From: an uncultured Clostridia bacterium
Lineage (GTDB): Bacteria > Bacillota > Clostridia > Lachnospirales > CAG-274
Assembly: GCA_947628755.1 (NCBI GenBank)
Contig: CANRBC010000016.1
Location: forward strand, 1 to 64,000
Direction: 5' to 3'
Length of the DNA stretch: 64,000 nucleotides
Shown: positions 12,895 to 43,387 of the stretch, in pieces
Position numbering within the stretch: the stretch's first letter is position 1
How the letters are laid out: the number at the start of each line of letters is the position of its first letter
Notes under the pieces: generated by a model
What the model saw: the letters and a program-made list of their open reading frames with translations, nothing else
The model's database searches: none
Told to the model about the DNA's origin: nothing
Translations under genes and position numbers: made by a program

Positions 12895-12909
12895 CAACAT
12901 AAGCTAATA

Positions 12910-12998
12910 TCGTATTGCAGGGGAACTTTAATGTTGAGAGGGCAGCTTGCTGCCGACCCTTTGAACCTGACGGCCAATACCGTGGAAGGGAGCAGGAT
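12910..12998 (+). promoter_or_regulatory. TPP riboswitch (THI element)
   Basis: The leader carries the conserved thiamin pyrophosphate aptamer signature: an AGGGGAAC segment near 12919, TTGAGAGG near 12933, then GACCCTTTGAACCTGA near 12955-12970, AATACCGTGGAAGGGAGCAG near 12976-12995. It stands directly before thiD-thiC, whose expression it should lower when TPP is abundant. The following intrinsic terminator indicates control mainly by premature termination. Confidence 0.93.
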
Positions 12999-13009
12999 CT
13001 TTAAGTAAC

Positions 13010-35639: not shown

Positions 35640-36090
35640 TGTGTCAACACAGCCTTTTTTATGTAAAAATATGGGGGAATGTTTGTAGAATTAAATTTTT
35701 GTTTATATGCATATCGACCCTTCAGTCAGGCACGTTCAAAAATATCTTAATTTGGAATTTTTGACGTGCCTGACAGCTCCCCTTCACGTAAGGGGAGCCT
35801 TAGGTGTACGCTGCCCAAAGTCGCTTATTTACTTTGAAAGACGATACCTGAGCCGTTGCCAACACCCCTGCCTCCCCTAGCCTTGCAATAAAACGCAACG
35901 TGTTTTATTGCAGGCGTCGGAGGTTTGCATCGGAAAGCTATCCGACAAACCGTAGGTTTGCTTTTGCGGAGCAAAAGTGCTGGGGAGGGGGACCATGCGA
36001 AGCATGGTGGAAGGGTCGTTTTAAAACAAAAAAATCTCTATTAAGATAAACCAAAATTTAACGCGACAACCCTTATCAACATTGAATTCT
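35640..36090. repeat. MITE-like composite repeat, type A copy 2 (inverted)
   Basis: From GGCTGTGTCAACACAGCC at 35638 to CGCGACAACCC near 36071. The left interior boundary is TTTTTGTTTATATGCATA then TCGACCCTTCAGTCAG; the right is GAAGGGTCG near 36010. About 330 bp (35715-36020) are the reverse complement of 4805-5125 with few changes, including hairpins GCTTTTGCGGAGCAAAAG and CATGCGAAGCATG. Non-coding; it fills most of the gap 35554-36143. Confidence 0.8.
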
Positions 36091-36684: not shown

Positions 36685-36711
36685 GTTTATAGCTTTGAAC
36701 GGAGGTATGAT

Positions 36712-38190
36712 ATGAACAGCTATGATGTATATAAGGATATAGCGGAAAGAACAGGCGGAGATATTTATATAGGCGTAGTCGGTCCTGTGAGAACGGGAAA
36801 ATCTACCTTTATAAAGAAATTTATGGAAGAGCTTGTTATACCCAATATTGAAAACGACTATGTAAGGACAAGGGCGAGAGATGAGCTTCCCCAGTCGGCG
36901 GAGGGTACTGTCATAATGACCACAGAGCCTAAATTTGTGCCTAACGAGGCTGTGACCATAAGTCCCGCAGAGGGTCTGGAGCTTAACGTAAGGCTTATAG
37001 ACTGTGTAGGCTATATAGTAGAGGGCGCAGGGGGACATACTGTGAACAACAGTCCAAGAATGGTGTCCACTCCCTGGGCGGAGAGCAAAATGGCATTTGC
37101 CCAGGCGGCAGAGCTGGGAACACGCAAGGTAATAAAAGACCATGCGACAATAGGTCTTGTAATAACCACCGACGGCAGTATTACGGATATTCCCAGAGAA
37201 AATTACATACAAAGCGAGGCGGCTATTATAAAGGAGGTAAAGGATACAGGCAAGCCCTTTGTAATAGTGCTGAATTCAGCCGACCCGTCCTCGGAGAAAA
37301 CACAGGAGATAAAAAGGCAAATGGAGAATAAATACAAGATGCCTGTGCTTGCCGTAAGCTGTAAGGAAATGACTGGGGAGGACATAAACGGCATACTTGA
37401 GGAGGCTCTCTACGCCTTTCCTCTCGGCGAGGTGGATATTGCCATACCGAAGTGGCTTGAAGCCATGGACGACAGCTATCACCTTAAGGAAAGCCTTATT
37501 GCTTCTGTAAAGGAAATGGCAGAGGGCATAAAGGGCATAAGAGATGTGCCAAAGGCTGCGGAAACGCTCAGCGCCAATGAAAATGTAAAGAAAATATATT
37601 CCGAAAGCATTGATTTGGGTCAGGGCAGGGCATTTATAGAGGTATTTTTAAACGACAATCTTTTTTACGATGTGCTTACTGAAACCACAGGCACGGAAAT
37701 AAACAGCGAATTTGAGCTTATATCTACTATTAAGCTGCTTTCCGAGGCAAAAAGAGAATATGACAAGATTAAGAACGCTCTTGACGAGGTAAACAAAAAG
37801 GGCTACGGCATAGTTACGCCATCTGTGGAGGATATGGAGCTTGAGCCTCCCGAAGTGCTTAAGCAGGGGGGACGCTACGGCATAAAAATAAAGGCGGAGG
37901 CTCCGGGCATACATCTTATAAAGACCAATATAAAGACGTCTGTTGCGCCTATTGTAGGCTCTGAGGAGCAGTCCAATGAGCTTGTGAGCTATCTCAGCTC
38001 AAGGTACGACAGCGACCCCGACAGTATATGGGATTACAGTATATTCGGCAGAACTCTCAAGGAGCTTATAACCGACGACCTGAATACAAAGCTCATGCGC
38101 CTTTCTGAGGATACTCAGTACAAATTCAAGGAGTCTCTGCAAAAAATTATTAACGAGGGAAGCGGCGGAATTATCTGTATTTTGCTGTGA
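36712..38190 (+). CDS. spoIVA: Stage IV sporulation protein A
   Basis: A cytoskeletal ATPase made in the mother cell that polymerises on the outer forespore membrane and forms the base of the spore coat. The 492-residue length equals that of Bacillus SpoIVA. The N-terminal nucleotide-binding domain has GVVGPVRTGKSTFIKKFMEE near residues 20-39 (Walker A), then RLIDCVGYIVEGAGGH near 94-109. The C-terminal region with GIICILL is also conserved. GAACGGAGG precedes the ATG at 36712; an in-frame start 38 codons earlier has none and would precede the promoter. Sigma-E control is visible upstream. Confidence 0.98.
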   Translation: MNSYDVYKDIAERTGGDIYIGVVGPVRTGKSTFIKKFMEELVIPNIENDYVRTRARDELPQSAEGTVIMTTEPKFVPNEAVTISPAEGLELNVRLIDCVGYIVEGAGGHTVNNSPRMVSTPWAESKMAFAQAAELGTRKVIKDHATIGLVITTDGSITDIPRENYIQSEAAIIKEVKDTGKPFVIVLNSADPSSEKTQEIKRQMENKYKMPVLAVSCKEMTGEDINGILEEALYAFPLGEVDIAIPKWLEAMDDSYHLKESLIASVKEMAEGIKGIRDVPKAAETLSANENVKKIYSESIDLGQGRAFIEVFLNDNLFYDVLTETTGTEINSEFELISTIKLLSEAKREYDKIKNALDEVNKKGYGIVTPSVEDMELEPPEVLKQGGRYGIKIKAEAPGIHLIKTNIKTSVAPIVGSEEQSNELVSYLSSRYDSDPDSIWDYSIFGRTLKELITDDLNTKLMRLSEDTQYKFKESLQKIINEGSGGIICILL

Positions 38191-38332
38191 TTATGATGAA
38201 TTTGTTTAATAATTTAACAGTTTATTCATAAATTGCGGCAGCGCGGCGGAGATTTTGTAAATTTTATTAATTTTAGGCATTATTCCGCATTTTTTTACAT
38301 AAAAAGTTCTAATTTTTTTTACAAAAAAACTA

Positions 38333-38361
38333 TTTACTTTATATGATATATGTTATATAAT
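38333..38361 (+). promoter_or_regulatory. Promoter of the candidate small RNA
   Basis: TTTACT (38333-38338), a 17-base spacer and a perfect TATAAT (38356-38361). It points at a structured, non-coding stretch that ends in a strong terminator. Confidence 0.7.
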
Positions 38362-38367
38362 ACACCT

Positions 38368-38492
38368 AGATTGATAAACAAGTTGTCAATCTTTTACCTA
38401 AAGCTCTTTAATGAAGTTCTCCCCCTACCCTTTCTAACTTCCATTTTAGAGCTTTACAGCAGACAACACCCCGATTTTTATCGGGGTTTTTT
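38368..38492 (+). ncRNA. Candidate trans-acting small RNA with C-rich loop
   Basis: About 125 bases between a sigma-A-type promoter and an intrinsic terminator, with no start codon plus ribosome site. Three stems are predicted by eye. AGATTGA/TCAATCT is at 38368-38392. AAAGCTCT/AGAGCTTT at 38400-38455 encloses GAAGTT/AACTTC. The terminator CCCCGAT/ATCGGGG with TTTTTT is at 38469-38492. The middle stem shows a loop CTCCCCCTACCCTTTCT, complementary to purine-rich ribosome-binding sites. It resembles no riboswitch class I know, and ligA starts 150 bases beyond the terminator. Confidence 0.65.
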
Positions 38493-38641
38493 ATTGCGCC
38501 GAAATATATATCGGAACTATGTTCCGATTCAGTTATCTAATGTAAAGTAATTTGTTTGGGTATTGGGAAATATAAATCTTTATTTCATTTGATTAATTTT
38601 TCCTTATGAGTTATACTAATATAAGGGAAAGGAGCATGACT

Positions 38642-40582
38642 ATGGAAAGAATGAGGCAGCTTATAGATATACTGAACAGAGCGTCGGAGGCATATTATCA
38701 GAAGGACAGCGAGATAATGAGCGATTTTCAGTACGACAGGCTTTACGACGAGCTTGTTTCACTGGAGGCGGAAACGGGTATAGTGCTTTCCGACAGTCCC
38801 ACCAGGAATGTAGGACATAAGGTGCTGAGCGCTCTTACAAAGGTAAGGCACGAAAGCCGTATGCTTTCTCTCGACAAGACAAAGGAGGTAGGCAGGCTCA
38901 AGGAATTTCTGGGAAGCGAGGAGGGCATACTCTCCTACAAAATGGACGGACTGACCGTAGTGCTTACCTATAATAACGGAGAGCTTGTCCAGGCGGTTAC
39001 AAGGGGCAATGGTGAAATAGGCGAGGATATAACTCACAATGCCGTGTTTTTCAGAAATATACCTCTTAAGCTGGGCTTTAAGGGCGAAATGGTCATACGG
39101 GGCGAGGCGGTCATATCCTTTGAGGACTTCGACAGAATAAACGAAAATCTTGCGCCGGAGGAAAAATACAAGAATCCGCGTAATCTGTGCAGTGGAACGG
39201 TAAGGCAGCTCAATTCGGAAATATCCGCAGGCAGAAATGTGAACTTCATAGCATTTTCTCTTGTAAAAGCAGAGGGCATGACTTTTGGCGACAGCAAGGC
39301 GGAAAGACTGGATTATCTTGAAAAAATGGGCTTTACGGCAGTTGAAAGAAAAATAGTTACCTCCGATAATATAGAGGAAAGCGTAAGGGAATTTGAAAAC
39401 AGGATACCTCAAAATAAATACGCCACAGACGGTCTTGTGCTTACCTACAACAGTATGGAATACAGCCAAAGCCTTGGCGCAACAGCCAAATTTCCAAGAG
39501 ATTCCATAGCCTTCAAATGGGCGGATGAGCTGGCGGAAACTCGGCTTATTTCCATAGACTGGAGCACATCAAGAACGGGACTTATAAATCCCATAGCGGT
39601 ATTTGAGCCGGTGGAGCTTGAGGGCACTACTGTAAACAGAGCTTCTCTCCACAATCTGAGCATTGTGGAAAATCTTAAGCTGGGCATAGGAGATACCATT
39701 ATGGTATACAAGGCGAATATGATAATACCCCAGGTAGCTGAAAATATGACCCAAAGCGGAAATATAGATATACCCAAGATATGCCCCGTCTGCGGTGAGG
39801 AGACTGAAATAATAAGTCTGAGAGACGGCAGGGCGCTTAAATGCCCTAATCCCAACTGTAAGGCACAGAGGGTGCTGAGCCTTGAGCATTTTGTGTCAAG
39901 GGACGCCATGAATATAGAGGGGCTTTCCGAGGCAACAATAGAAAAATTCGTGGAAAAGGGATTTATAGACAATTATACGGATTTGTTCAGACTTGACAGA
40001 TACAGAGATGAGATTATGGAAATGGAGGGCTTCGGCGAAAAATCCTACGGCAATCTCATATCCGCAATAGAAAAAAGCAAAAATGTCCATATAGCAAACT
40101 TCATATATGCTCTTGGCATAAACAATGTGGGACTGAGCAATGCAAAGCTGCTGTGCAAGAAATATAAATACGATATGGATAAAATAAGAAACGCAAGTTC
40201 AGATGAATTGCTTGAAATAGACGGCTTCGGCGAGGTAATTGCCAATTCCGTTCGCAAGTATTTCAGCCACGGGAAAAATATACGGCTTATAGACGAAGCT
40301 ATGGAATATATTTCCTTTATTCCTGAGGAGGAAAGCGGTGAGAATATTCTGGAGGGCAAAACCTTTGTAATAACAGGCGACGTTCATATATATAAGAACA
40401 GAAAGGAGCTTCAGGCTCATATAGAGAAGCTGGGAGGAAAGGCAGCCTCAAGCGTAAGCTCCAAAACCGACTATCTTATAAACAACAATGCCAATTCCAC
40501 CTCCTCCAAAAACAAAAAGGCTAAAGAACTGGGCATACCCATTATAAGCGAGGAGGAGTTTGAGAGCATGATACGCAGATAA
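38642..40582 (+). CDS. ligA: NAD+-dependent DNA ligase
   Basis: Seals nicks during replication and repair using NAD+. The 646-residue protein has the adenylation motif YKMDGLTVVL near residue 102 (KxDG lysine), RGEAVISFEDFDRIN near 158-172, a four-Cys zinc finger (CPVCGEET...CPNPNCKAQR, about 380-408), helix-hairpin-helix repeats (about 435-555) and a C-terminal BRCT domain (about 570-646). AAAGGAG lies seven bases before the ATG at 38642, so I prefer this to an ATG 12 codons upstream. It is monocistronic. The adenylation site YKMDG differs slightly from the usual (L/A)KxDG but keeps the key residues. Confidence 0.97.
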   Translation: MERMRQLIDILNRASEAYYQKDSEIMSDFQYDRLYDELVSLEAETGIVLSDSPTRNVGHKVLSALTKVRHESRMLSLDKTKEVGRLKEFLGSEEGILSYKMDGLTVVLTYNNGELVQAVTRGNGEIGEDITHNAVFFRNIPLKLGFKGEMVIRGEAVISFEDFDRINENLAPEEKYKNPRNLCSGTVRQLNSEISAGRNVNFIAFSLVKAEGMTFGDSKAERLDYLEKMGFTAVERKIVTSDNIEESVREFENRIPQNKYATDGLVLTYNSMEYSQSLGATAKFPRDSIAFKWADELAETRLISIDWSTSRTGLINPIAVFEPVELEGTTVNRASLHNLSIVENLKLGIGDTIMVYKANMIIPQVAENMTQSGNIDIPKICPVCGEETEIISLRDGRALKCPNPNCKAQRVLSLEHFVSRDAMNIEGLSEATIEKFVEKGFIDNYTDLFRLDRYRDEIMEMEGFGEKSYGNLISAIEKSKNVHIANFIYALGINNVGLSNAKLLCKKYKYDMDKIRNASSDELLEIDGFGEVIANSVRKYFSHGKNIRLIDEAMEYISFIPEEESGENILEGKTFVITGDVHIYKNRKELQAHIEKLGGKAASSVSSKTDYLINNNANSTSSKNKKAKELGIPIISEEEFESMIRR

Positions 40583-42685: not shown

Positions 42686-43387
42686 ATGAAAATTGCAAGA
42701 AATATTTTTGTACTATGTATGGCTGTGGCTCTTATACTGGTATCCGTACACATGTGCGTTGCAGACAACTTCAATATGAAGGTAGTGGAGCAGAACGGCG
42801 TTGCCAAGCTGCAGCTCACATATAATCAGAAGCAGTATGAGGTAGTGCTTACTCCCGTAGGTCAGACAGCTCAGCCAAATACAGGCGCTCAGACGACTGC
42901 GCCGCAGACTGCTCAGTCTACTGCCGTAACTCTTGAACAGGCAAAGAACATCGCTCTTAAGGACGCAGGACTTACAACTGCCGATTTCGTTAAGGCAAAG
43001 CAGGACTATGACGACGGCAGACAAATTTACGAGTTGGAATTCAGAAGCAACGGTAAAGAATACGACTACGATATAGACGCCGCAACGGGCAGGATACTTA
43101 AGACGGATATTGACTATTACAACAATATATTCGGCGGAAATACTCAGGCTCAGCAGAGCACACAGCAGACGACAGCCAATGGCATAACAGCTGCCGAGGC
43201 TGAAAATATAGCTCTTAAGGACGCAGGTATTTCAAAGACAAGCGTAAGATATATATATTCTCACAACGACAGAGAAGACGGCAGAGCCGTGTATGAGGTG
43301 GAATTTGCCCTTGACAATACAAAGTACGAGTATCAGATAGACGCCGCCAACGGCAATATATATGATAAGGATATAGACAGGGATTAA
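42686..43387 (+). CDS. Exported protein with two PepSY domains
   Basis: A 233-residue protein with an N-terminal signal peptide (hydrophobic residues 6-24, ending near MCVAD). A Gln/Thr/Ala-rich linker (about 55-80) follows, then two PepSY repeats (about 84-150 and 165-233). Each repeat starts with an ALKDAG helix and ends in a YDYDIDA/YEYQIDAANG strand pair. PepSY domains often inhibit peptidases or bind surface components, but the target here is unknown. AAAGGGTGA precedes the ATG. It is transcribed alone, ending at a repeat-family hairpin. Confidence 0.88.
   Translation: MKIARNIFVLCMAVALILVSVHMCVADNFNMKVVEQNGVAKLQLTYNQKQYEVVLTPVGQTAQPNTGAQTTAPQTAQSTAVTLEQAKNIALKDAGLTTADFVKAKQDYDDGRQIYELEFRSNGKEYDYDIDAATGRILKTDIDYYNNIFGGNTQAQQSTQQTTANGITAAEAENIALKDAGISKTSVRYIYSHNDREDGRAVYEVEFALDNTKYEYQIDAANGNIYDKDIDRD

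Follow-up and report, generated by a model that had tools for sequence, protein, structure and literature searches.

A predicted small RNA family with a conserved C-rich loop in two genera of uncultured gut Clostridia

The stretch of DNA analyzed here, which we call the window, covers 64,000 nucleotides of a contig from an uncultured Clostridia bacterium. Between spoIVA and ligA, at 38333–38492, it holds what the original prediction had described as an orphan small RNA: a TTTACT-N17-TATAAT promoter, a transcript of about 125 bases with three stems, and a perfect terminator followed by T6. All of these are present, with the transcript predicted and the terminator confirmed as an 8-bp stem (Table 1). 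The arrangement supports the view that the putative sRNA is an independent gene, with a sigma-A-like, housekeeping-type promoter and an intrinsic terminator of its own.

Table 1. Predicted features of the sRNA locus and its neighbors, in window coordinates.
Feature	Position	Strand	Remarks
spoIVA	36706..38190	+	upstream neighbor, outside the RNA
A/T-tract GTTCTAATTTTTTTTACAAAAAAACTA	38306..38332	+	5' of the -35; nearly invariant within the genus
sRNA promoter TTTACT-N17-TATAAT	38333..38361	+	-35 = 38333-38338; -10 = 38356-38361
Predicted sRNA transcript, ~125 nt	38368..38492	+	start inferred from the -10
5' hairpin AGATTGATAA/TTGTCAATCT	38368..38392	+	sequence varies, hairpin retained among relatives
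Main hairpin TAAAGCTCT...AGAGCTTTA, upper stem GAAGTT/AACTTC	38399..38456	+	stems covary between two genera
Unpaired C-rich loop CTCCCCCTACCCTTTCT, 17 nt	38419..38435	+	presumed seed; invariant in the genus
Intrinsic terminator ACCCCGAT-TTTT-ATCGGGGT, 8-bp stem, then T5/T6	38468..38492	+	outer stem covaries in the genus
ligA	38606..40582	+	downstream neighbor only here and in G001

Folding of positions 38365–38492 gave −38.3 kcal/mol, compared with −16.2 ± 3.1 kcal/mol for 200 dinucleotide shuffles (z = −7.1), and the 5' hairpin, the C-loop hairpin and the terminator all formed. The 17-nt loop had a mean probability of being unpaired of 0.999 in the ensemble and was unpaired in all three family members that we folded, which confirms the exposed C-rich loop of the original prediction.

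Promoter-like sites in this AT-rich stretch were found at a frequency near chance (4, with 2.7 expected). The sRNA promoter is credible because it is conserved across nine genomes and not because of any count of sites: the 17-bp spacing between the -35 and -10 elements is common to all nine, with TTTACA/T as the former and TATAAT or TATATT as the latter. Upstream of the -35, the A/T-tract may act as an UP-like element or as the site of a regulator. Positions 38306–38361 also contain a near-palindrome, ATTATATG...GTTATATAAT, which overlaps the promoter in four of the five genus members, and the spacer is unusually conserved. This near-palindrome may be the operator of a regulator.

The element is present once per genome in all five genomes analyzed from the window's genus (G000–G004). 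The four others are metagenome-assembled genomes labeled "uncultured Clostridia bacterium", from isolates named "Lapin" (presumably rabbit), and their copies are 78–93% identical over about 200 nt, with a loop that is 100% identical. The loop together with its closing stem, GAAGTTCTCCCCCTACCCTTTCTAACTTCCATT, is the same throughout the genus, and the terminator stem has four pairs with compensatory changes within it. Upstream, spoIVA is always present on the same strand (5/5). The downstream gene varies: ligA follows in the window species and G001, whereas G002 and G004 have a coat-like hypothetical gene and G003 has a phosphodiester-glycosidase-like gene, both of these named from a reading of their translations. 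Since the next gene differs between genus members, the RNA is not a ligA leader.

Four orthologs were identified in a sister genus, g9, using covariance models and a reading of the loci (G033, G035, G036 and G037; 4 of 7 genomes). In G033, the hairpin AATAAGCTTCTCAAAAAAGC(CTTTCCCCCTGCCCTTTTT)GCTTTTTGAGAAGCTTATT, which leads into a T run, lies downstream of spoIVA; it is preceded by a TTTACT-N17-TATAAT promoter and a 5' hairpin, and tRNA-Phe follows. The other three were weak matches of the first loop-hairpin model, built from the five genus members and G033, and were clearly related on inspection. They share the hairpin AGCTCTTCTTAAAGC(TCTCCCCCACCTACCCTTTCTG)GCTTTTTGAAGAGCT plus a T run, a 5' hairpin of the form GGCTG...CAGCC, a TTTACT-N17-TATATT promoter and tRNA-Phe immediately downstream. 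The G037 loop reads CTCACCC where the others have CTCCCCC, and this copy was recovered by a later model built without it (E = 3.7e-8, a rough value given that model calibration was shortened). Because G033 has both neighbors, the spoIVA-side and tRNA-Phe-side copies are orthologs.

All nine genomes have the loop on a covarying stem, a TTTACW-N17-TATAWT promoter and a 5' hairpin. The loop follows the consensus CYYYCCCCC(ACC)TRCCCTTTYT or comes close to it; it has five consecutive Cs in eight of the nine and CACCC in G037, three sister-genus members have a 3-nt insert, and loop length across the family is 17–20 nt. The loop hairpin of the sister-genus members doubles as their terminator, whereas the window's genus has a separate terminator downstream. 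A repeated element of unrelated structure, with CCCCCTACCCTTTT in a GC-rich stem, occurs in several copies on one contig of another sister-genus genome, G012 (L067, L072, L074, L075).

In six genomes spoIVA lies immediately upstream of the element and on the same strand. The element might then be no independent RNA but the end of the spoIVA transcript (its 3' UTR or terminator) or the beginning of the following one (a 5' leader or attenuator). Its own conserved promoter argues against this, as do the three orthologs located away from spoIVA. A leader would also have to serve ligA, the coat-like hypothetical gene, the phosphodiester-glycosidase-like gene or tRNA-Phe, depending on the genome, and the predicted terminator would stop the transcript ahead of any of them. 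We therefore consider an origin as part of a neighboring transcript very unlikely; changing neighbors and the separate promoter rule out a ligA leader, a spoIVA 3' UTR and a tRNA-Phe leader specifically. The RNA is independent of its neighboring genes, and the label "orphan" was right.

A six-member alignment made from sequence only showed 4 of 15 pairs changed on both sides and still paired; shuffles averaged 1.0, and 2 of 500 reached 4. An eight-member alignment gave five such pairs, although it was fitted to the model and so leans towards it. The original prediction had proposed conservation with covariation as a check, and both were found, in nine genomes of two genera with compensatory stem changes. 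If the loop is the functional element, it should stay constant while its stem changes, as is seen here.

The same loop is spanned by an 8-codon ATG...TAA frame (38411–38437, MKFSPYPF). The original prediction had stated that the RNA contains no reading frame, which holds in that there is no long one inside the transcript. The short frame could in principle encode a tiny conserved peptide, and ATG and TAA do frame the loop in four of the five genus members. It has no ribosome-binding site or SD sequence, however; the ATG is lost in G004, the frame is absent from the sister genus, and third codon positions are conserved along with the others. Comparison thus largely refutes a peptide, which we regard as hardly credible.

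Covariance-model searches found no convincing member in the family's other genera or among some 390 genomes sampled from the order, and no paralog in the genome of the window species. Fifteen weak matches that the whole-RNA model gave in genomes of other families were inspected and proved to be ordinary terminators. Inspection of weak loop-hairpin matches (L259–L263, L266–L271, L273–L275, L277, L278) likewise revealed no such C-loop hairpin. Among viral contigs there was one exact 17-mer, outside any comparable hairpin.

Rfam 15 contains no family that matched above its gathering threshold, and permissive thresholds did not change this; the best hit, MicC (22.8 bits; cutoff, 90), is at chance level. 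6S RNA was not found in the genome, and 6S or another Rfam family is ruled out as the identity of the element. The Rfam scan called for in the original prediction therefore yielded no known class. Elsewhere in the window, a TPP riboswitch at 12909–13008 scored 55.2, barely above its Rfam gathering score of 54.3. Judged from sequence comparison, the element at 38333–38492 represents a new sRNA family with a narrow taxonomic range, two genera of gut Clostridia, and we are highly confident that a real sRNA gene lies there.

We studied possible targets in 2.31 of the 2.50 Mb (92%) of the window species' genome, with gene starts taken from a simple home-made caller. The original prediction had assigned the loop to a type that pairs with Shine-Dalgarno (SD) regions. 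At −14 kcal/mol, pairing was indeed better with SD regions (65) than with coding sequences (21) or upstream sequences (14; n = 900 each). However, shuffled loops of the same letters preferred SD regions as much as, or more than, the real loop did; at −16, the real loop paired with 69 genes and shuffled loops with 108.6 ± 39.8. Since shuffled loops equal or exceed the real one, composition alone explains the preference. No loop complement of 10 nt or more was found in SD regions in this 92% of the genome, and predicted targets were not significantly enriched in secreted proteins. Target prediction with the loop, another of the checks proposed, returned no conserved SD target. The gene fakA, the best SD candidate, was rejected as one, having TAGGGGGA in three species and the canonical TAGGAGGA in two with the same loop. 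Within the window, a secreted-protein gene (42686–43387) is a candidate SD target; its RBS region, AAGAAAGGGTG, agrees with the loop complement over 9 nt.

The window also carries, at 35880–36060, a dispersed G-rich, palindromic repeat, GGGGAGGGGGACCATGCGAAGCATGGTGGAAGGGTCG, with more than 45 copies in the 2.31 Mb of its own genome. It is REP/MITE-like, occurs at sister-species loci as well and yields spurious ORFs (MRSMVEGS...). We rejected this repeat as a sponge for the sRNA: it pairs with the loop at −25.9 kcal/mol, yet 22% of shuffled loops match that value, and its G-rich arm often has a complementary arm of its own.

The sole exact match of at least 13 nt in 92% of the genome is AAAGGGTAGGGGGAG, a perfect 15-nt complement of the loop within the coding region of an RND-type transporter (so identified from a reading of its translation) at G000:C9:46541 (L052:1501). 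The orthologs in G001 (L065) and G004 (L064) carry it base for base, so that it is present in three of the five species. The sRNA might accordingly regulate one or a few mRNAs, such as this one, by pairing within coding regions. Against this, the site lies about 1930 nt into the coding sequence and is inexact in G002 and G003, the loop has its 3-nt insert in three sister-genus members, and a rough estimate puts the probability of one such match arising by chance at a few per cent, which is not very low. We consider regulation of this kind quite unlikely, and the transporter match is only a lead, not a result.

A loop that is nearly invariant on drifting stems, with no specific SD enrichment and no conserved SD targets found, could also be recognized by an RNA-binding protein or titrate it, the RNA acting as a sponge or decoy and the stem merely displaying the loop. 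Titrating RNAs usually carry a repeated motif, whereas this RNA has a single loop and no paralog in the genome. To our knowledge, no protein preferring C-rich single strands has been described in these bacteria. On balance, a protein decoy seems rather improbable. A related view, that the single long loop is either a protein site or a global modulator of ribosome–mRNA contact and not mainly an SD-masking seed, strikes us as doubtful, and somewhat more so. The loop looks like the 16S rRNA tail, CACCUCCUUUCU, interrupted by extra bases; the 16S gene itself was not found in the contigs searched.

Our preferred reading is trans-acting base pairing, mainly at SD regions, to which we give a probability of roughly 0.6. 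The sRNA would start from a housekeeping-type promoter of its own and end at the intrinsic terminator, and its stable stem would display the conserved single-stranded C-rich loop of 17–20 nt. This loop, with UCCCCC or UACCCUUU as its seed, would pair in trans with mRNAs at G-rich stretches, most of them in or close to SD sites, and the pairing would block translation or alter mRNA stability, as for Gram-positive C-rich-loop sRNAs. Hfq and CsrA, which a simple search, a weak test, looked for in 92% of the genome, were not found, and this counts against the reading. Expression, pairing, SD masking and targets are what we infer, whereas gene structure, conservation, the covarying stem, the conserved loop and independence of the neighbors can be read directly in the genomes. 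The original prediction of a trans-acting riboregulator, possibly undescribed, is borne out as far as an independent, undescribed sRNA is concerned (promoter, terminator, conservation in two genera, compensatory stems), and neither an Rfam match nor a lack of conservation, which would have refuted it, was seen, but pairing with SD regions is plausible only.

These results add a well-delimited, nine-member sRNA family, with a presumed seed and covarying stems, to a group of uncultured gut Clostridia that has few described sRNAs. A loop that is kept while its stem drifts, and a terminator role that is swapped between genera, illustrate in compact form how a base-pairing sRNA may evolve. With so conserved a loop, tests of targets are straightforward.

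Several base-pairing sRNAs of Firmicutes invite comparison. In Clostridioides difficile, SpoX and SpoY base-pair with the 5' region of spo0A and are linked to sporulation (PMC10267692). The likeness is that of clostridial base-pairing sRNAs; SpoX and SpoY came from Hfq RIL-seq and have no known sequence relation to the new sRNA. CsfG, which occurs in endospore formers, is a structured sRNA whose CU-rich loops are highly conserved (PMC3574147); it has no known targets (PMC9147052). The new sRNA shares with it the structured RNA, the endospore-former setting and a conserved C-rich loop. CsfG, however, is forespore-specific (sigma F/G), has three C-rich regions and lies at ylbG-ylbH, whereas the new sRNA has one loop, lies beside spoIVA or tRNA-Phe and has a promoter (TTTACW-N17-TATAWT) that reads as sigma-A-like.

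In Staphylococcus aureus, RsaA uses an unpaired, conserved UCCC as the seed for RBS pairing (PMC3961350), and an unpaired conserved UCCC is what the new sRNA has in common with RsaA and the other UCCC-motif sRNAs of that species. We detected no sequence or Rfam relation to RsaA, and no second, loop–loop contact was identified in the new sRNA. The unpaired C-rich regions of Bacillus subtilis RoxS pair with SD regions (PMC4409812), and C-rich regions have also been recorded for FsrA and CsfG (PMC3961350, PMC4409812). Like RsaE/RoxS of Staphylococcus and Bacillus, the new RNA is a short Firmicute sRNA with an unpaired C-rich sequence; RoxS has several such regions (CRR1-4), whereas the new sRNA has a single loop of 17–20 nt, another lineage and genomic place, and no Rfam match. 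In its sequence features it is a stand-alone intergenic gene with a promoter, a terminator and a conserved unpaired C-rich stretch. By analogy, it most probably belongs to the same functional kind as RsaE/RoxS, RsaA and CsfG, as a family distinct from all those described.
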